Shown: positions 6,927 through 55,050 of the stretch, one piece after another
Layout: each line of letters opens with the position of its first letter
Position numbering within the stretch: the stretch's first letter is position 1
DNA from: Flavobacterium omnivorum
GTDB taxonomy: Bacteria > Bacteroidota > Bacteroidia > Flavobacteriales > Flavobacteriaceae
Length of the DNA: 64,000 bases
Assembly (NCBI RefSeq): GCF_900099915.1
Contig: NZ_FNDB01000007.1
Span: 62,001-126,000 of the forward strand
Reading direction: 5' to 3'
The notes under the pieces: model-generated
Databases searched by the model: none
Told to the model about the DNA's origin: nothing
Seen by the model: only the letters and a program-made list of their open reading frames with translations
Program-made: the position numbers and the translations under genes

Positions 6927-6969
6927 TTTCAGAAGCTATTTCCTGCTGTACACTGCAAGTCCTCGCTAC

Positions 6970-7041
6970 AAAAGCCGTTTTTCTATGTCCTGAAAAGAGC
7001 TTCCTCCGGTCGCTTTTTCAGGACAAGAAAAACAAGCTTTT
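6970..7041. repeat. Long imperfect hairpin of a flavobacterial interspersed repeat
   Basis: Two 27-base arms (6970-6996 and 7015-7041) pair with few mismatches; the inner 11 bases TGTCCTGAAAA / TTTTCAGGACA are perfect. The flanks (CTGCTGTACACTGCAAG on the left, CTGTGGGCTTTCCG on the right) read like a short interspersed repeat common in Flavobacterium intergenic regions; that recollection was not checked. It separates the di-haem gene from the outer-membrane gene. Confidence 0.7.
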
Positions 7042-7085
7042 ACCGCTGTGGGCTTTCCGTTTCCATCAGGGCTAAAACAACAAAC

Positions 7086-11940: not shown

Positions 11941-12099
11941 AAGAATTATCTCAGATTCAAACTAATAAAATCTGTTTCAAATCCAAAAGCAAAAATTGGC
12001 GAAGACCGAATATTAATGCAGCTACATTTTTTGGCACCAAATTATTTGGTAAATCCTGACAGCACGAATCTGGATCTGATACCAGTGGAAAAAATTTAG
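11941..12099 (+). pseudogene. Remnant of a paralogue of the preceding lipoprotein gene (3' end only)
   Basis: Read in one frame the stretch gives IKSVSNPKAKIGED and then YLVNPDSTNLDL before a TAG stop. This parallels the neighbour's IKSVSNLNAKISDD ... CLMNPESTNLEVV, at about half identity over ~45 residues, with no start codon or signal peptide upstream. It is the tail of a duplicated gene whose 5' part is gone. Confidence 0.7.
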
Positions 12100-12318
12100 A
12101 CCAACTAAAACTACAGTACACAACTACATGAAATCTATCGCCATTACATCCACTCACCTTGGAGTCCAGATTCGTAATAAATTGGTTTAGTGACAATTAT
12201 GTAAAAATAATTAATAATTCTATAAAAACGATGGCAAATATATAGGCTACATTTGATAGAAAGGAAATTTACAAACCGTAATTCTTCAAATCTGATTGTT
12301 AATTTAAATAATGATAGT

Positions 12319-13473
12319 ATGAAAGCACTTGTTTATTTCGGTCCCCGAGATGTGAGGGTCGTAGAAATGCCGGATGCCAAAATTGAGCAGTCGACAGATG
12401 TATTGGTTAAAATAACCACAACTAATATTTGCGGATCCGATCTTCACATGTATGAAGGTAGAACTGATATGGAATCTGGAAAGATTTTAGGCCATGAAAA
12501 TATGGGTAGAGTTGTGGAAGTGGGCAAAGCCGTAGCACAAATTAAAGTGGGAGATATGGTGTGTCTTCCATTTAATATTGGTTGTGGTCATTGTCAAAAC
12601 TGTGAAAGCGGCTTAACGGGTTTTTGTCTTACACTGAATCCTGGATTTGCAGGTGCTGCCTATGGTTTTGCCGGAATGGGTCCTTTTAGTGGCGGCCAGG
12701 CCGAATATTTGCGCGTTCCTCATGGTGATTTTAACTGCCTAAAATTACCAGAAGATGCGATAGAAAAGGAGAATGATTATGTAATGTTATCTGATATTTT
12801 TCCTACAGGATATCATGCAACGGAATTGGCTGGCGTAAAACCTGGTGACTCCGTGGTGATTTATGGCGCAGGTCCAGTTGGACTGATGGCAGCACATTCG
12901 GCAAGTATAAAAGGTGCCAGTAAGATCATGGTTGTTGATAATCATCCAGACCGATTGAAGCTTGCTGAAGAATTCGGTGCTATTCCAATTGATTTTTCAA
13001 AAGGTTCTGCTGTAGAACAGGTCCTAGAGCTTACAAATGGCAAGGGTGCTGATAAAGGTTGCGAATGTGTAGGGTACCAGTGTTGCGATAAACATGGTAA
13101 GGAACATTCCAATATAACAATGAACGAACTAGTGCAGGCCGTAAAAGCAACGGGTTCTATAGGGGTTGTAGGGGTTTTTGTTCCTAAAGATCCTAAATCA
13201 AAAGAGGAATTGCAAAAAGAAGGGCACATGGATTTTGATTTTGGTCAATTCTGGATGAAAGGACAGCGAATAGCAACGGGACAGGCAAATGTAAAAGCGT
13301 ATAACCGTCAGCTTTCTACTTTGATTTCTGTGGGTAAAGCAAGACCTTCATTAATTGTCTCGCATGAACTTTCATTAGACGAGGCTCCAAATGCCTACAA
13401 GCATTTTGATGCCCGCGATAAAGGATGGACGAAAGTGCTGCTGAAACCAGAGATGATTACAGCTAAAAAATAA
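12319..13473 (+). CDS. Zinc-dependent alcohol dehydrogenase, formaldehyde-dehydrogenase-like
   Basis: 384 residues from the ATG at 12319 (MKALVYFGPRDVRVVEMPDA); an earlier in-frame ATG at 12253 adds 22 residues unlike the family. Medium-chain zinc dehydrogenase: catalytic zinc ligands C38 (NICGSDLHMYEGR) and H59-E60 (GHENMG), structural zinc cysteines C89, C92, C95 and C103 (CGHCQNCESGLTGFC), and the NAD(P) Rossmann motif GAGPVGLMAA. The pattern and the internal CECVGYQCC stretch resemble glutathione-independent formaldehyde dehydrogenases (Pseudomonas FdhA type). The substrate cannot be read from sequence. A strong hairpin terminator follows. Confidence 0.85.
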   Translation: MKALVYFGPRDVRVVEMPDAKIEQSTDVLVKITTTNICGSDLHMYEGRTDMESGKILGHENMGRVVEVGKAVAQIKVGDMVCLPFNIGCGHCQNCESGLTGFCLTLNPGFAGAAYGFAGMGPFSGGQAEYLRVPHGDFNCLKLPEDAIEKENDYVMLSDIFPTGYHATELAGVKPGDSVVIYGAGPVGLMAAHSASIKGASKIMVVDNHPDRLKLAEEFGAIPIDFSKGSAVEQVLELTNGKGADKGCECVGYQCCDKHGKEHSNITMNELVQAVKATGSIGVVGVFVPKDPKSKEELQKEGHMDFDFGQFWMKGQRIATGQANVKAYNRQLSTLISVGKARPSLIVSHELSLDEAPNAYKHFDARDKGWTKVLLKPEMITAKK

Positions 13474-13551
13474 ACTTTAAATGAGTTGAGGATTTTTCAC
13501 ATCGCAACTGTCAGTTGAAGTGGTTATTTTGTGCACTTTTGGTCAACAATC

Positions 13552-13602
13552 AAATGGATAATAATAATTCTATACCGGTAAATTATTATTATCCATTTTT
13601 TA
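13552..13602 (+). terminator. Hairpin terminator after the dehydrogenase gene
   Basis: An 18-bp perfect stem (AAATGGATAATAATAATT at 13552-13569 with its complement at 13581-13598), 11-base loop, followed by a short T run. Confidence 0.6.
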
Positions 13603-13748
13603 TTCTCGCCAGATATCATTATTGGTTTAATTTTATTTATTTCAAAATTCCAAATTCATTATTCAGCATTCATATTTTAAACCTTTGTACCTTTGTCATT
13701 CAAAAATAAGGGAATGAAATACGATTGCTTCGTTCCTCTCAATGACAC

Positions 13749-14447
13749 ATGAATAAAACCATCCAACTTCAAGATTTAGGAAATAAAGATTACAAAGCGA
13801 CTTGGGAATACCAAGAAGAATTGTTTAAGGGAATCGTCGATTTAAAAATTAGAAATCGAAGAGAAGAACTTGATTTAGCAACGCCAAATTATTTTTTGTT
13901 TGTCGAGCATCCACACGTTTACACCTTAGGGAAAAGCGGTGATCTATCTAATTTATTATTGTCCGAAAAACAACTCGAAGCCAAAGGAGCTACTTTCTAC
14001 AAAATCAATCGTGGAGGCGATATTACCTATCACGGACCGGGGCAAATTGTAGGGTATCCTATTTTGGACTTAGAAAATTTCTTTACGGATATCCATAAAT
14101 ACCTGCGTTTTCTGGAGGAAGCCATTATTCTCACGTTGGCTGAATACGGAATTCAATCGGGTAGGAGTGTTGGTGAAACAGGAGTTTGGTTAGGCGCAGG
14201 AACACCATTTGCCAGAAAAATTTGTGCCATGGGCGTTCGTGCTTCCCGTTGGGTGACCATGCATGGATTCGCTTTAAACGTAAATGCCGATTTAGGGTAT
14301 TTTGACAATATTATTCCTTGTGGCATTCGCGGTAAAGCCGTTACATCATTAAACGTGGAACTCGGTGTTGAAAAAGTAAATGAAGAAGAAGTAAAAGAAA
14401 AAATCCTGCAACATTTTACGAAGTTATTTGTTTGTGAATTTCAATAG
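13749..14447 (+). CDS. lipB: Octanoyltransferase (lipoate biosynthesis)
   Basis: Transfers octanoyl from acyl-carrier protein to lipoyl domains, the first step of lipoate synthesis. The 232 residues show the family motifs EHPHVYTLGKSG, NRGGDITYHGPGQIVGYPI (including the conserved His) and the catalytic region GVWLGAGTPFARKICAMGVRASRWVTMHGFALNVN with FDNIIPCGIRGKAVTSL, in which the Cys of PCGI and a nearby Lys form the active site. A separate transcript is likely, since a terminator precedes it and a 65-bp repeat array follows. Confidence 0.96.
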   Translation: MNKTIQLQDLGNKDYKATWEYQEELFKGIVDLKIRNRREELDLATPNYFLFVEHPHVYTLGKSGDLSNLLLSEKQLEAKGATFYKINRGGDITYHGPGQIVGYPILDLENFFTDIHKYLRFLEEAIILTLAEYGIQSGRSVGETGVWLGAGTPFARKICAMGVRASRWVTMHGFALNVNADLGYFDNIIPCGIRGKAVTSLNVELGVEKVNEEEVKEKILQHFTKLFVCEFQ

Positions 14448-14630
14448 CAAAAAGCACTTGCCGTAGCAAATACAAATCGCAGTGCTGAATAGCTTTATTA
14501 AAATAGAGCACTATTCGTAATCCGAACCAACACTGTATGTTGCCAGTGATGCACAGATTCACTTTGATTAAAGAAAAAGTGAAGTAGATTGATGGGTTAA
14601 CTCCGTGAAAATCCTTTAAATGTGCAGTAA
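14448..14630. other. Non-coding stretch upstream of the 65-bp repeats
   Basis: A minus-strand open frame of 86 codons covers this stretch but reads into the tandem repeat and overlaps the lipB end. It has no signal, domain or start context I trust. It looks like repeat-derived sequence rather than a gene. Confidence 0.4.
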
Positions 14631-14921
14631 AAAAATCAATTCTCGTTTCCATATCTAAGCCCACCTCTGCACTCAAAAATCATTAATCTACAATCAAAAA
14701 TCAATTCTCATTTTCACATCTAAACCCACCTCTGCAATCAAAAATCGTTAATCTACAATCAAAAATCAATTCTCGTTTCCATATCTAAGCCCACATATGC
14801 TATCAAAAATCGTTAATCAAAAATCAAAAATCAATTCTCGTTTCCACATCTAAACCCACCTCTGCAATCAAAAATCGTTAATCAAAAATCACAAATCAAT
14901 TCTCGTTTCCATCACTAATTT
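14631..14921. repeat. Tandem 65-bp repeat, four full copies plus part of a fifth
   Basis: Units begin AAAAATCAATTCTC at 14631, 14696, 14761 and 14826; the fifth, at 14891, begins with one A changed to C. The spacing is exactly 65 bp. Each unit carries TCTAAGCCCAC or TCTAAACCCAC and ends in ATCGTTAATC-like sequence; copies differ at a few positions. No gene lies inside. The remaining ~250 bp to rnhB holds nothing I can name. Confidence 0.9.
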
Positions 14922-15169: not shown

Positions 15170-15826
15170 TTATGGGATTAACCGAAACGTTAATCGGTGG
15201 TATTTTGTGACGCCGTATTTCTTAATCGCTTCCCGATGTTCTTTGGTCGGATAGCCTTTATTCTGTTTCCAATTGTACATGGGGAATTCATCATGAATCC
15301 GATTCATGTATTCATCGCGGTACGTTTTTGCCAAAACAGACGCAGCAGCAATACTCGTAAATTTAGAGTCTCCTTTAACAATGCAGCTAAAAGGAATGTC
15401 GTTAAATGTATTGCAATCCTTTTCAGAAAATCGTTTCACCGTATTTTTGACTAGGACTTCGCCTATGAAAAGGGATGGAGTTAAGGCAATCGAACTGTTG
15501 CCATCCACAATAATAAATTTGGGTTGAGGATGCAGCTTCAAAATGGAGTTTTGCATCGCTTTTATAGACGCATTCAAGATATTGATTTGGTCTATTTCCA
15601 GCGGTTCTAGGTGTGTCACCGCATACGAAATACTTTCCTGTTCAATAATGGGACGCAAAGTTTCTCTAACTTTTTCTGATAGTTTTTTGCTGTCGTTTAA
15701 GAGGTTATTTGCAAAATCAAAAGGCAAAATAACTGCTGCTGCCGTAACAGGTCCAGCGAGACAACCCCGACCAGCTTCATCGGTTCCGGTTTCTAAATGT
15801 GGTAAAGAAAAATAGGGACGTAGCAT
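15170..15826 (-). CDS. rnhB: Ribonuclease HII
   Basis: Removes ribonucleotides and RNA primers from DNA-RNA hybrids. 218 residues from the ATG at 15826 ([21 protein letters not shown]); an upstream in-frame ATG at 15880 would add 18 residues outside the fold. Active-site motifs: [19 protein letters not shown] (Asp and Glu of the carboxylate set), IIVDGN, and the [21 protein letters not shown] block. The C-terminus [11 protein letters not shown] is typical. It is convergent with lipB and apparently monocistronic. Confidence 0.96.
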
Positions 15827-16347
15827 AGTTGTATTTTGATACAAAGAAAGTACTTTAACTTGTTTGGTGCAATTATTCAAAGCGTCTGTTCGAGTTTTTT
15901 TTATGAAGTAAAACGGAACAAAAAGTCTCGATCCGCTCTGCTACTCGAAGTGAGGTGTATCGAGAACCGTTTTAATGAAATTTTTCTTTATGCTGAGTTT
16001 TTATCGAAGGGCTCGATACATTTTTCTTCCCGAAGTTTTGGGATAAAAATACTCGAACTGACGAAAAATTACCATCATAAACTACTTACACCAGCGGGTT
16101 AGTGTATAATGGATGGGTCTAAAGCCTGTATCACAATTCAAGTTGGTGTGATAAAAAATCAAAATTAATATTTGTGCTAAAATCAATGTTTTATAGCTTT
16201 TATTGAGTATTAATATCCTTTTTAACAAGTACGACAGTATCATATCGTAATAATTATGGTAATCATAAAAAAAATTTATGCCTCTAAGTGCTATTTTTTA
16301 ACATTTTATTATCATTTTTGCAGGATAACTAATTTAACTAATTTAAT
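15827..16347. other. Intergenic region with degenerate CTCGA-type repeats, upstream of susC
   Basis: Between 15915 and 16065 the text repeats CTCGATxC / GATCGAG-like pieces (GTCTCGATCCGCTC, GTATCGAGAACC, GGCTCGATACA, ACTCGAACTGACG), resembling decayed members of the CTCGACTGCGCTCGAC family found near 39.5 and 45 kb. No believable gene. A near-consensus -7 element (CATTTTTG, 7 of 8) sits at 16313-16320, 27 bp before the susC ATG. Confidence 0.5.
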
Positions 16348-21588: not shown

Positions 21589-22458
21589 ATGAACCATTCA
21601 GAACATACAAATACCACTTGGCTGTTTGAAATAACACCCAAAAATAAATTTTTCACACTCAATCTAAAGGAAGTGTGGCAATACCGTGATTTGCTGCTGC
21701 TTTTTGTGAAAAGGGATGTGGTTACGGTGTATAAGCAAACCGTTTTAGGACCGCTTTGGTATTTGATTCAACCGCTTTTCACTTCGATTACCTTTACTAT
21801 TATATTTAATAATGTTGCCGGAATAGATACTGGTACCGTGCCTCCATTTTTATTTAATTTGGCCGGAATCACAGTTTGGAATTATTTTACGGCTTGTCTA
21901 ACCGGAACTTCGAATACGTTTGGAGCCAATGCAGGGATATTTGGGAAAGTATATTTCCCCCGTATAATCGTACCGCTTTCAATTGTTGTTTCCAACTTAT
22001 TGAAGTTTGGAATCCAGTTTTTTATATTCATTTGCTTTTACGGATATTACTATTTTCAAGGAGCTGCAATAGGCATGAATGTAACCACTTTATTCTTTCC
22101 ATTACTAATTGTTATGATGGGTGTTTTAGGATTGGGGTTGGGTATGTTTATCTCCTCCTTAGTTACTAAATACCGTGATTTTAGTAACTTGATTGGTTTT
22201 GGTGTACAATTGTTGATGTATTTATCGGCAGTGATGTACCCGATGGCTTTGATCAAAGAAAAATTACCTACTTACGGCTGGTTAGTCGAATACAATCCGT
22301 TAGCATACGTGATTGAAACGACGCGATATATGTTGCTGGATGTTGGGCAACTCTCTATTTACGGATTGGGTTTTACGTTTTTAGTAACCATTTTCGTTTT
22401 TTTAGTAGGAGTTTTGATATTTAATAGGACGGAAAAGAGTTTTATAGATACGGTTTAA
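21589..22458 (+). CDS. wzm: ABC-2 type polysaccharide export permease
   Basis: 289 residues. It starts with a cytoplasmic segment (ITPKNKFFTLNLKEVWQYRDLLLLFVKRDVVTVYKQTVLGPLW) typical of Wzm/TagG/KpsM permeases, followed by about six membrane segments (IITFTIIF, FKFGIQFFIFICFYGYYY, LFFPLLIVMMGVLGLGLGMFI and so on) and the conserved YNPLAYVIETTRYMLL loop. It forms the inner-membrane channel that exports a lipid-linked O-polysaccharide together with the Wzt ATPase. The usual Wzm-Wzt adjacency is interrupted here by repeats and a four-helix-bundle gene. Confidence 0.9.
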   Translation: MNHSEHTNTTWLFEITPKNKFFTLNLKEVWQYRDLLLLFVKRDVVTVYKQTVLGPLWYLIQPLFTSITFTIIFNNVAGIDTGTVPPFLFNLAGITVWNYFTACLTGTSNTFGANAGIFGKVYFPRIIVPLSIVVSNLLKFGIQFFIFICFYGYYYFQGAAIGMNVTTLFFPLLIVMMGVLGLGLGMFISSLVTKYRDFSNLIGFGVQLLMYLSAVMYPMALIKEKLPTYGWLVEYNPLAYVIETTRYMLLDVGQLSIYGLGFTFLVTIFVFLVGVLIFNRTEKSFIDTV

Positions 22459-22672
22459 GAGTGAGAAGTGAAGAGTTAGAAGTGAAGAGTTAGAAGTGAA
22501 GAGTTAGAAGTGAAGAGTTAGAAGTGAAGAGTTAGAAGTGAAGAGTAAAGAGTGAAGAGTGAAGAGTGAAGAGTGAAGAGTGAAGAGTGAAGAGTGAAGA
22601 GTGAAGAGAAAAAAGTGAATAGTTAGTTGCTACTCACGACTCACGATTCACTACTCACTAAATAAAAAAGAT
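22459..22672. repeat. 14-bp and 7-bp tandem repeat array left of the four-helix-bundle gene
   Basis: Six copies of the 14-mer AGAAGTGAAGAGTT (starts 22464, 22478, 22492, 22506, 22520, 22534) pass into about nine copies of the 7-mer AGAGTGA to ~22608. The array then turns into the opposite orientation (CTCACGACTCACGATTCAC, ~22634-22660) just before the gene. The array begins directly after the wzm stop. Confidence 0.9.
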
Positions 22673-23020
22673 ATGGATCATAAAGATTTGGAGGTTTGGA
22701 AGAAGAGCATGGATTTGGTAGTTACAGTTTACCAAATTACACAAATGTTTCCAGATACTGAGAAGTATGGTTTGACGAGTCAAATGAGAAGAGCAGCTGT
22801 TTCTATTCCATCTAACATAGCGGAAGGAGCTGCACGTAAAGGAGATAAAGAATTGATGCATTTTCTCTATATTTCTATAGGGTCACTCTCAGAATTAGAA
22901 ACGCAATATTTAATTGCGACACGATTAGGATTTGTTACAAATGAGGATGCTTTTGGACAACAACTTATTGAGGTTAAAAAGCTTTTGATTGGATTTAAGA
23001 ATTATATAAATAAGAAGTGA
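22673..23020 (+). CDS. Four-helix-bundle protein (23S rRNA intervening-sequence protein family)
   Basis: 115 residues, complete: LEVWKKSMDLVVTVYQIT, then YGLTSQMRRAAVSIPSNIAE with GAARKGDKE, then SIGSLSELETQYLIATRLGF, the standard pattern of the S23/Avd-like four-helix-bundle family. Relatives are encoded in 23S rRNA intervening sequences, and the fold matches the Avd accessory protein of diversity-generating retroelements; no reverse transcriptase is present here. The biochemical role is unknown, with basic-surface nucleic-acid binding inferred. The stop codon TGA lies inside the first unit of the right-hand repeat array. It splits wzm from wzt. Confidence 0.9.
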   Translation: MDHKDLEVWKKSMDLVVTVYQITQMFPDTEKYGLTSQMRRAAVSIPSNIAEGAARKGDKELMHFLYISIGSLSELETQYLIATRLGFVTNEDAFGQQLIEVKKLLIGFKNYINKK

Positions 23021-23140
23021 GAGAAGTGAGAGAAGTGAGTGAAGTGAGAGAAGTGAAGTGAGAGAAGTGAAGTGAGAAAAGTGAAGGGTGAAAAGTGAAT
23101 TGTGAGTGGTGAAAGGTGAAAAGTGAGAAGAGAATCGTGG
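23010..23140. repeat. GAAGTGA-type repeat array right of the four-helix-bundle gene
   Basis: Runs of AAGTGAGAG, AAGTGAAG and GGTGAAAAGTGA overlap the stop codon of the four-helix-bundle gene and extend ~120 bp. The sequence is the same family as the left array but less regular. Confidence 0.85.
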
Positions 23141-23220
23141 AATGTGATAAAGAATCTTACGTAAAAATTAAAAAAAGAAAATAGTATATAGCTAAAAAAC
23201 GAGTAAAATGAAACGGAATT

Positions 23221-23250
23221 GTGAATAGTAAGAAGTTGTTTTCTATTCAC
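23221..23250. repeat. Hairpin closing the right repeat region
   Basis: GTGAATAG (23221-23228) and CTATTCAC (23243-23250) are perfect inverses, and the right side goes on into TTTACTTTTCACTTCTCC, the inverted orientation of the array motif. It ends 26 bp before the wzt ATG. Confidence 0.7.
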
Positions 23251-23276
23251 CATTTACTTTTCACTTCTCCCGAATT

Positions 23277-24536
23277 ATGAAAGACATTATATTAAAAGCC
23301 GAAAACATTTCTAAGCAATACCGCTTGGGTCAAGTGGGTACTGGTACTATGGCGCACGATTTGAACCGATGGTGGCATCAGGTGCGCGGGAAGGAAGATC
23401 CTTATTTAAAAATTGGCGATACCAATGACCGAAGTACCAAAGGCACCAGCGATTATGTCTGGGCACTGCAGAATATTAATTTTGAGGTGGAACGTGGTGA
23501 GATTTTGGGGATTATAGGAAAAAATGGTGCGGGAAAATCAACTTTATTAAAGATATTATCTCGAGTGACCGCTCCCACTACTGGAAGTATTAAGTTTGGA
23601 GGTCGCGTGGCTTCTTTGCTTGAAGTAGGAACCGGATTTAATGGCGAAATGACTGGCAGGGAAAATATTTACCTCAATGGAGCTATTTTAGGGATGACCA
23701 AAAAAGAAATCAAATCGAAGATTGACGAAATTATTGAATTCTCCGGATGTGAACGCTACATTGATACCCCTGTAAAACGATACAGCAGCGGGATGTATGT
23801 ACGACTGGCTTTTGCCGTAGCCGCATTTCTGGAGCCTGAAATTTTGATTGTGGATGAGGTTTTGGCCGTGGGCGATGCAGAGTTCCAGAAGAAAGCCATT
23901 GGCAAGATGAAGGATATTTCCAATCAAGGAGGGAGAACGGTTTTGTTTGTAAGTCATAATATGGCGGCGGTGAAACAATTGTGCACGAGAGGAATTGTTT
24001 TGGAGAATGGGAAGGTTGTTTTTGAGGGAGGAATAACGGAGGCTGTTGATTCATATATTAATTCAAATCAAATTTTTGAGTCAATCTGGAATAAATTAAC
24101 TCCTAATAATTCTATTGCTTACTTTACACATGCTTCAATAATAAATTCTGAGAATAAATATGTTCAAGTAGTTAGCAATAGGAAACAATGTTTTTTAAAG
24201 TTAAAAGTTGTTGTAGAGGCAAAAGTTTTTGATGGCACATTTGCGTTTGAAATTGTTAACCAAATGGATCAATCGATTTTTGTTAGTCATGATTTTGATA
24301 TGTCGGATTCTATTCGTGAAGCAGGATGCTTTGAGATTCTTATTCCATTACCAAAGTTTTTACGTGCGGGCAATTACTTTGTTAATTTGGGCTCAAATAT
24401 AAGGGGTTTTACAACTTTAGAGTATTTTCCAAATGTATTAGGCTTTGAATATATTGATGAGTTATATGGAGGGCAAACCCAGAGTAGGCCAGGTACAGTA
24501 TTCATTCCATTGAAGTGGGAAATTAATAAGATTTAA
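23277..24536 (+). CDS. wzt: Polysaccharide export ABC ATPase with C-terminal glycan-binding domain
   Basis: 419 residues. The nucleotide-binding domain (1-~260) has Walker A GKNGAGKSTLLKIL, signature YSSGMYVRLAFAVAAFLEP, Walker B ILIVDEVLAVGDAEFQ and the H-loop FVSHNMAAVK; an insertion of ~40 residues after the first strand (GTGTMAHDLNRWWHQVRG) is usual for Bacteroidota. Residues ~270-419 form a separate beta-rich Wzt C-terminal domain, which in relatives recognises the end of the O-polysaccharide. Base composition falls sharply at the domain boundary (~24.05 kb), suggesting the C-terminal part was exchanged. The stop overlaps the next ATG (TAATG). Confidence 0.93.
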   Translation: MKDIILKAENISKQYRLGQVGTGTMAHDLNRWWHQVRGKEDPYLKIGDTNDRSTKGTSDYVWALQNINFEVERGEILGIIGKNGAGKSTLLKILSRVTAPTTGSIKFGGRVASLLEVGTGFNGEMTGRENIYLNGAILGMTKKEIKSKIDEIIEFSGCERYIDTPVKRYSSGMYVRLAFAVAAFLEPEILIVDEVLAVGDAEFQKKAIGKMKDISNQGGRTVLFVSHNMAAVKQLCTRGIVLENGKVVFEGGITEAVDSYINSNQIFESIWNKLTPNNSIAYFTHASIINSENKYVQVVSNRKQCFLKLKVVVEAKVFDGTFAFEIVNQMDQSIFVSHDFDMSDSIREAGCFEILIPLPKFLRAGNYFVNLGSNIRGFTTLEYFPNVLGFEYIDELYGGQTQSRPGTVFIPLKWEINKI

Positions 24537-44610: not shown

Positions 44611-44640
44611 TATCAGTAGGGGAATCGATTAAGGCTTAAT

Positions 44641-44886
44641 TGAGTCCTTCGTCTACGCTCAGGAAAGGCTGTAGTGGAGTTGTCAAATCGAGTCCTTCGT
44701 CTACGCTCAGGACAGGCTGTAGTCGAGTTGTCAAATCAAGCGCAGTCGAGATTAGTTTTGGAATATAAGGCGTCTCGACTGCGCTCGACGTGACAAAAGA
44801 TCTCGAGTTATCAAATCGAGTCCTTCGTCTACGCTCAGGACAGGCTATAGTCGAGTTGTCAAATCGAGCGCAGTCGAGATTCGTTT
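44641..44886. repeat. Repeat cluster left of the GIY-YIG gene
   Basis: Three copies of TGAGTCCTTCGTCTACGC or TCGAGTCCTTCGTCTACGC (44641, 44688, 44816), each followed by CAGGACAGGCT or a variant, plus one CTCGACTGCGCTCGAC copy (44772-44795). They alternate with GTTGTCAAATCGAGCGCAG, which contains the inverted form of the core. Confidence 0.9.
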
Positions 44887-47662: not shown

Positions 47663-49210
47663 ATGGACAATTTACAATTAAAAGAATTTACTACTGCATC
47701 AGGTGAAATCCTATTGTACGCTGGTACTCCAGATTTTATCCAATTAGAGGTTTTGTCCAAAGGAGCGGGCGATATTTGGCATAGTTCTTTTGAACAGGGC
47801 TATAAAAATGCATTCCCTGAATTGGTCTATCAAACTGCAGTATTTTTTTGGTATTTAAATGATTTTGACGGCTTGGATCAATGTGTCAGCTGGAGGGTTA
47901 ATCCTAATGCTTTTGCGGTTCGTAAATCAGTATGGGACCTCACAAAAGGTTTTGATAGCGATTATGAAAATCCTCAAATGCAGGCTTTGGATTTTGGTTT
48001 CAGATGCATCCGTTTTTTAGGAGGAGTTCCATTGTATGTTAAAAATTTATTTCCAGCTGCACAAAAAGAAGTTGTTGGTATTTCGCAAAAAGACCGTCAT
48101 CTTTTTTTTAGGAAAAATTATAAAATAAGCCATGCTCTTTTCATGATTTACAGATTGGGGTTTTGGAAAATTTCGGAATGGAGTACCTTTTTTAGTATTA
48201 AGCGCGCCTATCAAAAAAGGAATGATACTTCCAAACTTCCATCGAGAGCTCTTCTTTCTATTCAAGATCACCCTAGTGTCAGTTATATTGTACCTACAAT
48301 GTTCCGTCAAGAATATACGTTGCAATTGTTAGACGATTTGTCTAATCAAAATTATAAACCTACACAAGTCATTGTGGTAGATGCTACTCCGTCCTGCGAG
48401 AGAGATGAAGCAGCCTACGAACAAAAGAAGTATCCCTTTGAATTAAAAGTAATCTGGCAACAGTCTAAGGGGAGCTGCAAAGCTAGGAATGAAGCGATTG
48501 CTTTGTGCATGGGTGATTATATTGTTTTTGGCGATGATGATATTCGCATTCCTGCGGATTTTATCCAAAATCATATTCGGTTCTTACAAACGTATTCCGT
48601 TGGCGCCTGTAACGGGTTGGATATCCGTGCGGATCACCACAAACAGAATTTAGAGGATTTGGCCCATAAGTTAGAACAATTACGTCGCCCTCCATTTGTT
48701 GCGGGTTGTACCCAAATGTTTAGTAATGCCAATTCATGTGTCAAGCGAGAATTTGTAAATCAGTTGGTTGGGAATGACGTTAATTTTGATGGCGGTTACG
48801 GCGAGGATAGCGATTTTGGAATGTCGTTAAGTAAAATCGGAGTAACTGTTTTATCTAATCCATTTGCTGTTAATTTACATTTAAAACCCCCTAGCGGAGG
48901 GTATCGTTTTTGGGGAACTCAGGCTAAATTGCTTGGTAAAAAAAGAAAATCTCAGCCTTGGGAATTGGATACCCCTGTAAAAAATATTACCCCTATACCC
49001 AGTCCTACGGTGATGTATGGTATTCTGAAACATTACACGCCTAAGCAGTTGACAGAATATAAGTATAAGCATTTTACATATTATTTGTTAAGTGGGTCTA
49101 AGCTTGCTTTTTTATATCGTTTGCTGCGTCTGCCTTATAAGAATCTTCAGTTTAAGAAATCTGTTTTTTATGCCCAAAAATTACGGAATTTAGGAACCCG
49201 ACACGACTAA
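47663..49210 (+). CDS. Family 2 glycosyltransferase with N-terminal partial GT module
   Basis: 515 residues. Residues ~205-450 are a full GT-A domain: VSYIVPTMFRQEYTLQLLDDL, VVDATPSCERDE, GSCKARNEAIALCMGDYIVFGDDDI, then FVAGCTQMFSNANSCVKREF and the acidic FDGGYGEDSDFGMSL. Residues 1-~190 look like the acceptor-side C-terminal part of another GT2 enzyme (WRVNPNAFAVRKSVWDLTKGFDSDYENPQ) without its donor-binding half, so the gene may be a fusion or an N-terminally truncated two-domain enzyme. 130 bp from the previous gene; four bases before the next. Confidence 0.8.
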   Translation: MDNLQLKEFTTASGEILLYAGTPDFIQLEVLSKGAGDIWHSSFEQGYKNAFPELVYQTAVFFWYLNDFDGLDQCVSWRVNPNAFAVRKSVWDLTKGFDSDYENPQMQALDFGFRCIRFLGGVPLYVKNLFPAAQKEVVGISQKDRHLFFRKNYKISHALFMIYRLGFWKISEWSTFFSIKRAYQKRNDTSKLPSRALLSIQDHPSVSYIVPTMFRQEYTLQLLDDLSNQNYKPTQVIVVDATPSCERDEAAYEQKKYPFELKVIWQQSKGSCKARNEAIALCMGDYIVFGDDDIRIPADFIQNHIRFLQTYSVGACNGLDIRADHHKQNLEDLAHKLEQLRRPPFVAGCTQMFSNANSCVKREFVNQLVGNDVNFDGGYGEDSDFGMSLSKIGVTVLSNPFAVNLHLKPPSGGYRFWGTQAKLLGKKRKSQPWELDTPVKNITPIPSPTVMYGILKHYTPKQLTEYKYKHFTYYLLSGSKLAFLYRLLRLPYKNLQFKKSVFYAQKLRNLGTRHD

Positions 49211-51258: not shown

Positions 51259-52383
51259 ATGAAGTTTGTCCTATTCACCCATGTTCCCCATTCAAAAGCG
51301 GATAATCTGTATTTTGCTTACGCACCCTATGTTCTTGAAATGAATATATGGGGTAAACAAGTTAATGAAATGCTCATTGTAGCTCCTTTTTTTTCAGGTA
51401 AAGTAACTGCCATCGATATTCCTTATGAACATCAGAATCTACAATTTATCCCCGTTCCAAGTTTTGATTTATTATCGTTAAAAGCTGTTTTGAGCACTTT
51501 ATTTAAACTTCCCGGTTTACTTTGGATTATTTTTATTGCTATGAAAAACGCCGATCACATTCATTTGCGTTGTCCCGGAAACATTGGGTTGCTGGGATGT
51601 TTTGTACAGATTTTATTTCCATCTACTCCCAAAACTGCTAAATATGCCGGGAATTGGGATCCTAAAGCGAAGCAACCGTGGACGTATCGACTCCAGAAAT
51701 GGATATTGAGTAATTCCTTTTTGACACGAAATATGCAGGTTTTAGTGTATGGAGCATGGGAGGGAAGTTCGCTGAATATCAAACCTTTTTTTACCGCTAC
51801 GTATTCGGAAAATGAAAAAAAGGCACTAACACCAAAAGTGGTTGAAGACCTAATTGATTTTGTCTTCGTGGGTACTTTAGTCAAAGGAAAACAGCCATTG
51901 TATGCCATTCAGTTGATTGAAAGATTGCATCAGAAAGGATATGCCGTACGTTTGCGTCTGTATGGTGAAGGAGTAGAACGGGAAGTTTTGGAGGAATATG
52001 TCGCAGTGCATCAGCTTGAATCCATTATTACTTTAGAAGGTAATCAATCCAAAGTTACCGTGCAGAAAGCCTATCAAGACAGTCATTTTGTGGTATTGCC
52101 CTCCGATAGTGAAGGGTGGCCAAAAGTGATTGCCGAGGGGATGTTTTGGGGTTGTGTTCCTATTGCTACTTCAGTTTCGTGTGTCCCTTTTATGCTGGAT
52201 TATGGGAGTAGAGGGGTTTTGCTGGAAATGAATTTAGAGGATGATAGTCGGCAAATAGAGGCGGTATTACAGAATCAAGCGGATTTTGACAGTAAACGAA
52301 ATAAGGCTGCGGACTGGTCGAGGAGTTATACGCTAGAGGTTTTTGAGCAGGCGATTTTTAAAAGTTTAAAGTTTAAAGTTTAA
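51259..52383 (+). CDS. Family 4 glycosyltransferase
   Basis: 374 residues: KFVLFTHVPHSKADNLYFAYAPYVLEM, IHLRCPGNIGLLG, FVFVGTLVKGKQPLYAIQLI, LRLYGEGVEREVLEEYV and the donor-binding SDSEGWPKVIAEGMFWGCVPIATSVSCVPFML. The 3' end runs into a simple AAAGTTTAAAG repeat just past the stop (52365-52400). It is nine bases downstream of the previous gene. Confidence 0.9.
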   Translation: MKFVLFTHVPHSKADNLYFAYAPYVLEMNIWGKQVNEMLIVAPFFSGKVTAIDIPYEHQNLQFIPVPSFDLLSLKAVLSTLFKLPGLLWIIFIAMKNADHIHLRCPGNIGLLGCFVQILFPSTPKTAKYAGNWDPKAKQPWTYRLQKWILSNSFLTRNMQVLVYGAWEGSSLNIKPFFTATYSENEKKALTPKVVEDLIDFVFVGTLVKGKQPLYAIQLIERLHQKGYAVRLRLYGEGVEREVLEEYVAVHQLESIITLEGNQSKVTVQKAYQDSHFVVLPSDSEGWPKVIAEGMFWGCVPIATSVSCVPFMLDYGSRGVLLEMNLEDDSRQIEAVLQNQADFDSKRNKAADWSRSYTLEVFEQAIFKSLKFKV

Positions 52384-52501
52384 TTGTTTAAGGTTTAAAG
52401 GTTGAAGGGTTAGAATTGCGCGCGATGGAAGTGGCAAAATATAAGACGCCTGATTAACGAAATAGTAAGTATGAAGAAAGAAACAAGAGGCAAGAAGAAA
52501 A

Positions 52502-53602
52502 ATGCAACATGACAATCATAAAATAAGGATCATTCAAATTATCGATTCACTGGAGGCAGGAGGTGCAGAGCGGATGGCGGTCAGTTATGCCAATGCATTA
52601 GCTGAAACCATTGAGTTTTCCGGATTGGTGGTTACCCGTAAGGAAGGACCTTTGAAAGTAGAGGTAAGCAACTCTGTTTCCTATTTGTTTTTGAATAAAA
52701 AAAGAGCGGTTGACTTTGCTGCGGTTTACAGGCTGAGAAAGTTTGTGAAAAGGCATCAGGTAACTGTTATTCATGCGCATAGTACCTCTTTTTTTATATC
52801 TTTTTTATTAAAGTTAAGTTGTTCGAATTTAAACTTAGTTTGGCACGATCATTATGGTGACAGTGAGTTTTTAGCCAATAGGCCAATAGGTGCTTTACAA
52901 ATGGCGGCTCCCTTTTTTAGTGGGATTATAGCTGTGAATCAAATATTGAAAGATTGGGCGGAGCAAAAATTAAATTTTAAGAATACCATTTACTTGCCCA
53001 ATTTTCCATCGGAAGAAAATAACAGTACAGCAGCGACTATTTTGAAGGGAATTCTCGGAAAGCGGATTGTATGTTTGGCTAATTTGAGGCTACAAAAAGA
53101 TCATTTTTTATTATTGGATGTCGCTTGTAAATTAAAATTATGCCATCCCGAATGGACCTTTCACTTGGTTGGGAAAGATTTTGAAGATGATTATTCCCAA
53201 AAAATTAAGGATTTAATTGTAGCATATGATTTGGAAAAAAATGTGTTTCTTTACGGCACCAAAAATGATATACCCTTTATACTACGGCAATCGACTATTG
53301 GTATTCTCACCTCACAATCAGAGGGGCTTCCCGTGGCACTTTTGGAATATGGATGGTATCAAAAACCGGTCGTGGTCACTGCAGTAGGAGAAATTCCTTT
53401 TTTAGTTGAACACGGTAAAAACGGTTTTCTTATCGCGGCAAAACAGGAGTCTTTATTTTATGAAGCTTTGGTGACACTAATCGAAAATGAATTGCTGCAA
53501 TTGGAGTTTGGTCAATCCCTTTATCGTACGGTAAGGGAGCATCATTCAGAAACAGCGGTTATCACACAGTATTTAAATTGGTTGCAAAATAGTTACAAAT
53601 GA
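52502..53602 (+). CDS. Family 4 glycosyltransferase
   Basis: 366 residues: IIDSLEAGGAERMAVSYANALAE (the GGAER loop of GT4 enzymes), VIHAHSTSFFISFLLKL, IVCLANLRLQKDHFLLLDVACKL and SQSEGLPVALLEYGWYQKPVVVTAVGEIPFLVEHGKNGFLI with the EX7E-like pair. Overlaps the membrane-protein gene that follows by an ATGA. Confidence 0.92.
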   Translation: MQHDNHKIRIIQIIDSLEAGGAERMAVSYANALAETIEFSGLVVTRKEGPLKVEVSNSVSYLFLNKKRAVDFAAVYRLRKFVKRHQVTVIHAHSTSFFISFLLKLSCSNLNLVWHDHYGDSEFLANRPIGALQMAAPFFSGIIAVNQILKDWAEQKLNFKNTIYLPNFPSEENNSTAATILKGILGKRIVCLANLRLQKDHFLLLDVACKLKLCHPEWTFHLVGKDFEDDYSQKIKDLIVAYDLEKNVFLYGTKNDIPFILRQSTIGILTSQSEGLPVALLEYGWYQKPVVVTAVGEIPFLVEHGKNGFLIAAKQESLFYEALVTLIENELLQLEFGQSLYRTVREHHSETAVITQYLNWLQNSYK

Positions 53603-54957
53603 AAAACGAGGATCAATCCTATCTTTATTTAATTCTTTTCCATGTGGTCTTGGGTGCAATGGGCTTTTTACTGCCTTTTACAGCAAAGATTTATGGATAC
53701 TCCATTTTTATTTTCGGGGTTTATTACATCATCAAAAAACAAAATAGAAATAACGAAGCATTAATTGCCGCGGCATACGTAGTAGGGAGTGAAGTTTTTT
53801 TGAGAATGACCGGCGGAAATCCACTTTATGAGATTTCTAAGTACGGCGTCATGGTCTTTATTTTGATTGGAATGTATTATAGCGGTTTCTCTAAAGGAGC
53901 AGTGCCGTATTGGATCTTTTTATTGTTACTCGTTCCTAGTGTTGTGATCAGCGCCTTTGTGTTGAATTTTGATACGGATATTCGGAAAGCAATCGCCTTT
54001 AATATCTCAGGCCCCCTTTGTCTCGGATTAGCTTCCCTTTACACGTTTCGGCGCAAAATTGCCTTAGAAGAGATAAATAGGATATTGCTCAGTATGGGAT
54101 TACCTATTATTACGTGTATGGTCTATTTAACTTTTTATACGCCCAATGTTCAGGAGGTGATTACGGGTACAGAATCTAATTTTCAAACTTCCGGCGGTTA
54201 TGGTCCCAATCAGGTGGCAACCGTTTTAGGTTTAGGGATGTTTATCTTTTTCTCACGAGTAATTTTGGATTCTAAGACAAAATTCCAAATTATCCTTAAT
54301 CTGATTATTGCATTAAATATCACCTACCGAGGGATGTTGACCTTTTCCAGAGGTGGAATGATAACGGGATTCCTAATGATCGTTTTGTTGCTGGTGTTCC
54401 TATATTTTAAATCTAATTTTGGAGGAAGGGTAAAATTGAATTATATCATTGTGCTCCTAGTATTTGCACTTTTTACCACTTGGACCTACACTTCATTTCA
54501 AACCGGAGGTCTGATCAATAAAAGATACTCCAATCAAGATGCTGCCGGAAGAGTCAAACAAAGCCAGTTTACTGGTAGGGAAGACGTAGCCCAAAATGAG
54601 ATCAATACCTTCTTGAAGAATCCTATTTTTGGTGTTGGGGTCGGCAAAGGTGCCGAAGTTCGAGAGGATGAAACTGGGATCAAAGTTTTATCGCATGATG
54701 AAATAACGAGGATGCTGGCGGAACACGGTTCATTAGGAATAGTAGCGTTACTGATTTTATTTTTTACGCCCTTGGTGTTGTATTTAGAAAACAAATTCAA
54801 CATGTTTCTCGTGTGTTTTGTGGCCTTTTGGTTTTTAACGATCAATCACGCCGCCATGCGTACCGCAGCTCCCGCTTTCGTTTACTCGCTATCATTACTA
54901 AATGTGCAGTTGGGATTTCCGAGGAAAAAGCGTGTGGGAGAAGAGGAAAGAATATAG
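53599..54957 (+). CDS. O-antigen ligase/polymerase-family membrane protein
   Basis: 452 residues with about 11-12 hydrophobic segments (LILFHVVLGAMGFLLPF; LFSRVILD; IIVLLVFALFTTWTY and others). A large periplasmic loop holds RYSNQDAAGRVKQSQFTGREDVAQNE, LKNPIFGVGVGKGAEV and LSHDEITRMLAEHG, the Wzy/WaaL region in which GxGxG-type and His-containing segments are conserved. It polymerises the repeat or transfers the glycan to its carrier. Whether it is polymerase or ligase cannot be decided from sequence. Last gene of the ATGA-linked run. Confidence 0.85.
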   Translation: MKNEDQSYLYLILFHVVLGAMGFLLPFTAKIYGYSIFIFGVYYIIKKQNRNNEALIAAAYVVGSEVFLRMTGGNPLYEISKYGVMVFILIGMYYSGFSKGAVPYWIFLLLLVPSVVISAFVLNFDTDIRKAIAFNISGPLCLGLASLYTFRRKIALEEINRILLSMGLPIITCMVYLTFYTPNVQEVITGTESNFQTSGGYGPNQVATVLGLGMFIFFSRVILDSKTKFQIILNLIIALNITYRGMLTFSRGGMITGFLMIVLLLVFLYFKSNFGGRVKLNYIIVLLVFALFTTWTYTSFQTGGLINKRYSNQDAAGRVKQSQFTGREDVAQNEINTFLKNPIFGVGVGKGAEVREDETGIKVLSHDEITRMLAEHGSLGIVALLILFFTPLVLYLENKFNMFLVCFVAFWFLTINHAAMRTAAPAFVYSLSLLNVQLGFPRKKRVGEEERI

Positions 54958-55050
54958 AGAAGAGAATAAAGAGGGAAGAATAAAGAGGGGAGAATAAAGA
55001 GAAGGGAATAAAGAGAAGGAAATAAAGAGAAGAGATTAAAGAGGTAAGAA
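54955..55050. repeat. Simple AAAGAGAAGGGAATA-type tandem repeat
   Basis: About six imperfect units of roughly 14-16 bp (AGAGAATAAAGAGGG, AGAATAAAGAGGGG, AGAATAAAGAGAAG and so on) start at the stop codon of the polymerase/ligase gene. The rest of the gap to the next gene has no supported gene, but 55191-55226 forms a 13-bp perfect hairpin (CTTTTTCCTTCCC with its complement) without a T run. Confidence 0.75.

Follow-up and report, generated by a model that had tools for sequence, protein, structure and literature searches.

The DNA under study, in the following called the window, is a stretch of 64,000 nucleotides (nt) from Flavobacterium omnivorum (assembly GCF_900099915.1, contig NZ_FNDB01000007.1, positions 62,001 to 126,000 of the forward strand). 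It carries a polysaccharide operon in which a small gene of the S23 family, together with arrays of short repeats on both sides of it, is placed between wzm and wzt. The genes and repeats are the following, with profile matches and rows from Tandem Repeats Finder (TRF) in brackets.

21589..22458, plus strand: wzm, ABC-2 type polysaccharide export permease, the upstream neighbour (PF01061, ABC2_membrane, 3.6e-18)
22457..22623, no strand: left forward G-rich array of AGAGTGA type, first in a 14-mer form and then as a 7-mer (TRF period 7, 23.9 copies, score 180)
22630..22660, no strand: left reverse-oriented array of CTACTCA type, directly before the S23 start (TRF period 7, 4.4 copies; inverted repeats)
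22673..23020, plus strand: S23 / 23S-rRNA-IVP four-helix-bundle gene, 115 aa (PF05635, 7.1e-37; TIGR02436, 4.4e-35)
23013..about 23140, no strand: right forward array of AAGTGAG / AAGTGAA type (TRF rows between 23013 and 23156)
23240..23269, no strand: right segment in reverse orientation (CTATTCACCATTTACTTTTCACTTCTC), ending 7 nt upstream of wzt (inverted repeats)
23277..24536, plus strand: wzt, ABC transporter ATPase with a Wzt C-terminal domain, the downstream neighbour (PF00005, ABC_tran, 2.4e-23; PF14524, Wzt_C, 3.1e-8)

Inside the operon the order is forward and reverse arrays, the S23 gene, and again forward and reverse arrays, and the right array covers the TGA stop codon of the S23 gene itself (23018-23020). 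Between wzm and wzt, the list of open reading frames (ORFs) and the Pfam profiles give S23 as the only recognisable gene. An earlier note on this DNA had described an S23-type four-helix-bundle gene between wzm and wzt, flanked by 14-mer/7-mer arrays of which the right one runs over the stop codon and which turn round at their ends. The profiles PF05635, PF01061, PF00005 and PF14524 bear out the genes, and TRF and the inverted repeats bear out the arrays. That no reverse transcriptase or transposase is nearby holds as well: neither PF00078 (reverse transcriptase) nor PF01797 (Y1 transposase) has a match on the contig, those of the genome lying on other contigs. For transposases this covers PF01797 only, as other families were not searched one by one. 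No target duplication was recognised by eye at the block, for which there is no close empty site to compare with.

The protein belongs to the S23 family, with 126.3 bits against PF05635 (curated cut-off 33.8) and 120.2 bits against TIGR02436 (cut-off 24). Its solved relatives are PDB 2gsc (2.6e-30) and 2rld (4.3e-4), with five chains each; the title of a 2006 report by Lin et al. describes five four-helix bundles. The earlier note had called the gene S23/Avd-like; the NCBIfam model for Avd gives only 9.2e-5 and 22.7 bits against a cut-off of 80. Avd, a protein of diversity-generating retroelements, is a distant relative of the S23 fold, and PMC10053308 notes a resemblance of PF05635 to Avd and compares 4DWL with 2GSC. 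An interpretation of the block as a diversity-generating retroelement was discarded on the weak model score and the lack of a reverse transcriptase match on the contig. Nine matches in the F. omnivorum genome correspond to about eight S23 genes, and PF05635 is present in 60 of the 61 genomes sampled from the genus and in 90 of the 118 sampled from the phylum. In phage records there was no S23 match at E 1e-5; 36 plasmid records match S23, and the genus names show that at least 25 of these are cyanobacterial.

The relation between the two flanks of a gene was expressed as an arm score, in which the left flank is compared with the reverse complement of the right flank, and flanks paired between loci (swaps) served as a reference. 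Full flanks were available for 98 of 103 S23 ORFs, 75 of the 98 being from the same genus (L007-L009, L020, with no usable ORF, and L038 were left out of some early comparisons). The median score is 15 in the 98 S23 loci, 8 in 3000 swaps and 9 in 291 control genes. A score of at least 14 is reached by 58 of the 98 S23 loci as against 8 of the 291 controls, and by 5 of the 82 best-matched controls, which have codirectional neighbours and gaps on both sides; it should be noted that the thresholds of 13 and 14 were chosen after the data had been seen. When only the first member of each of 43 locus groups was used, 21 of the 43 reached 13, compared to 1.0% of the swaps. The earlier note would be refuted by relatives that have the gene and lack the repeats; most relatives do carry repeats with it (the 58 loci), the rest lying below that score. 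In the F. omnivorum genome itself most S23 loci have, judged by eye, a locus-specific short repeat on the left and its complement on the right, and six of the seven scored loci reach 14. The seventh is the broken L007; at L007 / L009 (about 47776-48089, on another contig of the genome) the S23 gene has several stops, and the flanks are arm-like by eye, yet the arm score is only 9. A stretch was called array-like when 40 nt matched themselves to at least 60% at one lag between 4 and 14. Of the flanks of the 98 S23 loci, 54% of the upstream and 41% of the downstream ones contain such a stretch, in most cases at lag 7, 8 or 14; for the 291 control genes the figures are 5.5% and 3.4%, respectively. 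Because the left/right match within a locus is better than in swaps and controls and recurs in distant bacteria, the sequence comparisons support the view that the gene and its cognate repeats form one unit. Weak arms are seen at the S23 genes of L026, L050, L060 and L073, which may lie between groES and groEL, as suggested by the start of the downstream protein in L026 and a 276-nt upstream gene in all four.

The sequence of the repeat unit is free between loci and its period is fixed at 7 (or 8). In the mean lag spectrum the S23 flanks peak at 7 and 8, where the controls, a few of which do have arrays, are flat. The arms were studied in 148 arms from 74 loci; here each of the 43 groups is represented by its highest-scoring member, and the arm counts are raised by this choice. 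The lag excess is 0.246 at 7, 0.235 at 14 and 0.199 at 21, and 88 arms fit best at lag 7, 22 at lag 8 and 5 at lag 9. Read toward the gene, the arms are G-rich and C-poor (more G than C in 69 of the 74 loci).

Arm sequence varies between species at one and the same locus, and the two arms change together. This was found in 60 loci from eight groups, in each of which three or more loci have similar neighbours: the left arm matches its own right arm with a score of 16.5 and the right arm of another species with 12.2 (p 3e-9). A unit-permutation test of register (16 of 56 loci below 5%) was biased, since the arms had been chosen by alignment, and the weight was therefore put on the cross-species comparison at the same locus.

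Co-varying arms would also be found in an intervening sequence (IVS) of mRNA. According to this alternative the arms form a stem in the polycistronic transcript; cleavage by RNase III then takes out the S23 segment, as it does in the IVSs of 23S rRNA, so that an insertion in an operon is tolerated. The gene family is indeed the same as in the rRNA IVS of PMC4990558, and the anatomy is similar. Both neighbours are codirectional for 87 of 97 S23 genes, as against 1003 of 1790 controls and 209 of 378 small controls (97 of the 98 loci had both neighbours, and some neighbours are spurious ORFs, so that the locus of the window itself counts as not codirectional). Furthermore, a stem of about 14 base pairs (bp) closes the element in the centroid fold of the RNA at 22459-23276, and the fold energy has a z-score of -2.39 (20 shuffles). 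The minimum-energy fold of the same block, however, has no closing stem, and the mismatches between arms show no bias toward G.U: 65 are of G.U type and 88 of A.C type in the 74 loci, 37 and 64 in an earlier set of 61 loci, where the excess of A.C (p 0.009) becomes p 0.07 once repeated loci are removed. In 69 codirectional hairpins without S23 the numbers are 35 G.U-type and 28 A.C-type. A selected stem in the sense RNA is not supported by such mismatches, and the likeness of the arms is therefore seemingly not kept by sense-RNA pairing; the same counts speak against the RNA-based element considered in the earlier note. A stem alone also leaves the fixed period of 7-8 nt, and the arrays found without an S23 gene, unexplained. 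We regard the mRNA IVS as rather unlikely; copying or recognition of the arms at the DNA level would seem to fit better.

The search for the same anatomy in distant bacteria was made by a scan of species genomes, which gave 80 named loci, 77 with flanks and 3 without; L344 (Kapaibacterium) was counted in Bacteroidota. An arm score of at least 13 is reached by 30 of the 49 Bacteroidota loci and by 20 of the 28 loci from other groups, among them Clostridia, Geobacter, Cloacimonadota and Gastranaerophilales, while the swaps reach 13 in 6.2% of cases in Bacteroidota and 1.4% in the others (in a grouping with L344 among the others). Of the 28 outside loci, 24 are titled metagenome bins, where contigs may be misassigned; two of the other four reach 13 (L309, L325) and two do not (L326, L350). 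On complete cyanobacterial plasmids from cultured strains, 4 of 11 S23 loci reach 13 compared to 6.4% of the swaps. The arm anatomy is present outside the phylum, yet it is not universal. Among the cyanobacterial plasmids the S23 gene is seen inside CRISPR operons, between cas6 and cas4 in L378 and L380, and between cas10 and a cmr3 gene in L386.

Arrays of this kind are also found away from S23 genes. The window has three such S23-less (solo) arrays, all of which the earlier note had omitted:

52357..52412, no strand: period-7 array of TTTAAAG type over the stop codon of ORF 51259-52383 (TRF)
54941..55043, no strand: period-14 (2x7) array over the stop codon of ORF 53599-54957 (TRF period 14, 7.4 copies)
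14631..14911, no strand: 65-mer repeat, 4.3 copies, with period-7 runs of ATCAAAA type, downstream of the minus-strand ORF 15170-15880 (TRF)

The best match of array 52357-52412 in its own genome is a flank of the S23 locus L003. The 8 genomes with no more than one S23 match have no period-7/8 array away from S23 in the 1.02 Mb sampled, and the 13 genomes with at least three have 41 in 1.444 Mb; at lags 5, 6 and 9-12 the low-S23 genomes have 22 arrays and the S23-rich ones 21. The S23 number of a genome is a count of matches, fragments included (the source genome was set at 8 of 9). With six detector settings the coupling at lags 7 and 8 gave p-values from 1.6e-6 to 2.2e-17 for all genomes and from 5.9e-4 to 3e-9 for the same genus, the other lags 0.10-0.60 and 0.03-0.43, respectively. 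The earlier note had tied the repeats to the gene. They do occur without it, and with about 28 solo arrays per Mb in S23-rich genomes, compared to about 1-4 S23 genes per Mb, even more often than the gene; the tie holds in so far as solo arrays are nearly restricted to genomes with several S23 genes. The solo arrays match S23 flanks of their own genome (14.9) better than those of other genomes (12.4; p 6e-4, 35 arrays from six genomes), and the own genome ranked first for 11 of the 35.

Tandem and quasi-palindromic repeats are known results of replication slippage and template switching. The arrays might then be a mutational by-product of these two processes in AT-rich intergenic DNA, with S23 as a passenger, and the homogenised arms agree with that. 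It does not account for lags 7 and 8 being raised and other lags hardly or not at all, nor for the near absence of lag-7/8 arrays in low-S23 genomes of the same genus and GC content (G041, G045), nor for the recurrence of the pattern in distant bacteria. We consider this explanation very unlikely.

A reverse transcriptase or a Y1 transposase making the arrays in trans is unsupported, G042 having arrays and no PF00078 match; G087 has one array in 100 kb and matches neither PF00078 nor PF01797. Counts of inverted repeats made with no filter for period (114 of 641 S23-rich and 40 of 399 S23-poor regions) gave no clean separation, probably due to included terminators. At locus L255 of G042 (11950-14465), S23-less arrays and short-loop hairpins with units of 7-8 nt lie in several consecutive gaps of an operon which, from its protein sequences, we take to be a histidine operon.

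The history of the block was followed at the junction between wzm and the next gene. Of the 121 genomes of the genus, 77 have a Wzm, and 30 junctions were fetched, 26 with a next ORF and 4 without; in L129 and L134 this ORF is something other than wzt. Four junctions hold S23 (L127, L130, L136, L155), and three have S23-less arrays, judged by eye (L128, L135, L143). The earlier note had looked to empty wzm-wzt sites for the exact ends of the element. Such sites exist, with gaps of 0 (L152), 0 (L154), 1 (L150) and 23 nt (L153), but they did not yield the ends, as the clean ones come from species whose Wzm is 77-78% identical. Of 15 loci of the closest S23 relatives, examined with short motifs, 6 have a Wzt-like protein after the S23 gene (L297-L300, L304 and L306, from F. 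erciyesense, F. petrolei, F. terrigena, an uncultured Polaribacter and two metagenome bins), and in three of these (L298, L300, L304) the end of Wzm was recognised too. Among the closest relatives dN/dS of S23 is 0.04-0.29 at dS 0.6-2.1 (17 of 21 pairs with a defined dS). The S23 gene at wzm-wzt is old and under purifying selection as a protein, and a recent insertion of the block is therefore not supported. Of the proposal that gene and repeats were inserted as one block, the unit of gene and repeats is upheld by the within-locus matching; a recent insertion is not supported, given the selection on the gene and the Wzt-like neighbours of its relatives.

Purifying selection and the position in an operon would also suit an immobile post-transcriptional autoregulator, where S23 binds the G-rich array in the mRNA of its operon, with pairing by the reverse array as competition; the G-rich polarity in 69 of 74 loci and the regular spacing of the units would suit it too. 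Against it, S23-less period-7/8 hairpins are also found in convergent (5 of 25) and divergent (4 of 25) intergenic regions, the competing duplex has no G.U signal, and the correlation between protein and motif is weak. Such an autoregulator is in our opinion distinctly unlikely.

By anatomy the nearest relative of the block is the rRNA IVS. For the 23S rRNA IVS of Coxiella burnetii, which has an S23 ORF, PMC4990558 reports tandem heptameric repeats before the start codon, whose number differs from strain to strain, and a terminal inverted repeat of 28 bp. Heptads and inverted repeats around an S23 ORF are thus already published for one species; an S23-family ORF, heptameric repeats before the start, terminal inverted repeats and a sporadic distribution are shared with the elements studied here. 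The present block differs in lying between protein genes of an operon and not inside an rRNA gene, and in the many repeat sequences, the co-variation of left and right, and the S23-less arrays across the genome. No rRNA match was found with Rfam in the window, nor in a further 20 loci that come from outside Bacteroidota or carry such a label. The sole Rfam match in the window is Flavo-1 RNA (RF01705) at 6935-7077 on the minus strand, with 42.2 bits against a gathering score of 42.

The nearest working analogue would be the REPIN/RAYT system, in which, according to PMC3116915, a protein gene is likewise flanked by repeats and inverted repeat pairs are found in extragenic places elsewhere in the genome. 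The differences are that the flanked gene here codes for an S23 four-helix bundle and no HUH/Y1 transposase, and that the repeats are tandem units of 7-8 nt with free sequence, whereas 16-mers are used in PMC3116915. A DNA transposon with terminal inverted repeats would have its own transposase, of which the ORFs and Pfam profiles show none in the block and PF01797 none on the contig. TRAP binds repeated triplets in RNA; its fold and the spacing of its sites differ from the S23 case, and the likeness is that evenly spaced short repeats could suit a ring of identical subunits.

The reading that we prefer, and which we put at slightly less than an even bet, is that the block is a copy of a widespread element with two parts, a partnership of the REPIN/RAYT kind without a transposase. 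The parts would be an S23-family gene and inverted arms of 7- to 8-nt units with a sequence particular to the locus. The S23 protein would recognise the G-rich strand of its cognate heptad arrays with roughly one repeat unit per subunit, the length of the unit mirroring the pitch of the subunits. It would act at the DNA level; its recognition would keep the left and right arms alike, and by copying or maintenance it would also sustain the S23-less arrays and hairpins elsewhere in the genome. A more daring version, which is quite improbable, makes the S23 ring a molecular ruler. One strand would be held in register with about 7 nt per subunit, and replication or repair would then insert, delete and copy units that are exactly one subunit pitch long, so that 7-nt arrays of arbitrary sequence are written and homogenised beside the gene and elsewhere. 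If the ruler exists there is a transposase-free class of repeat-making elements, of which rRNA intervening sequences are one outcome.

Several observations weigh against the two-part element. The arm score is below 14 in 40 of the 98 S23 loci and below 13 in 7 of the 11 cyanobacterial plasmid loci, one of which has repeats on both sides in direct and not inverted order. Two of the eight same-locus groups have no within-locus advantage, and in a Mantel test protein similarity predicts arm similarity weakly (rho 0.13, p 0.01). The 10-90% range of arm length is 23-56 nt; as arm lengths vary there is no fixed five-unit array, and a strict array of that kind for a pentamer was dropped. The polarity of the S23-less period-7/8 hairpins is weaker (G>C in 15 and G<C in 7 of 25). 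In the coupling analysis the two loosest settings do find arrays in low-S23 genomes (6 versus 102 and 4 versus 69 in S23-rich ones), the samples are 20-304 kb per genome with few low-S23 genomes (two in the genus), and the p-values treat arrays as independent and ignore phylogeny. The better match of solo arrays to own S23 flanks (15.2) than to own non-S23 flanks (11.6; 31 of 35, p 6e-6) is partly a matter of period alone, because heptad arrays align better with any heptad-rich flank. The solo arrays could be remnants of lost S23 elements. Finally, binding and copying of arrays by S23 are inferred rather than observed.

The recurrent cognate nucleic-acid feature offers a concrete and testable target for the S23 protein. 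It also connects rRNA intervening sequences to a group of intergenic repeats, and provides a protein-repeat pair that resembles REPIN/RAYT and has no transposase. Among the matches listed in the open-access literature, none besides the rRNA IVS paper PMC4990558 describes S23 genes with flanking heptad arrays; PMC5524665 lists four-helix-bundle genes, with nothing on arrays around them in the passages covered.

Two further observations concern repeats in intergenic DNA. Genomes G036, G057 and G062 share a recurrent inverted repeat of GTCATTGCGAGGAACGAAGCAATC type between their genes, at L187 15098-15257, L097 10997-11368, L240 14339-14548 and L241 3976-4065. In the window, positions 44638-44737 hold a 48-bp tandem repeat of 2.1 copies amid inverted copies of TCTCGACTGCGCTCGA type.
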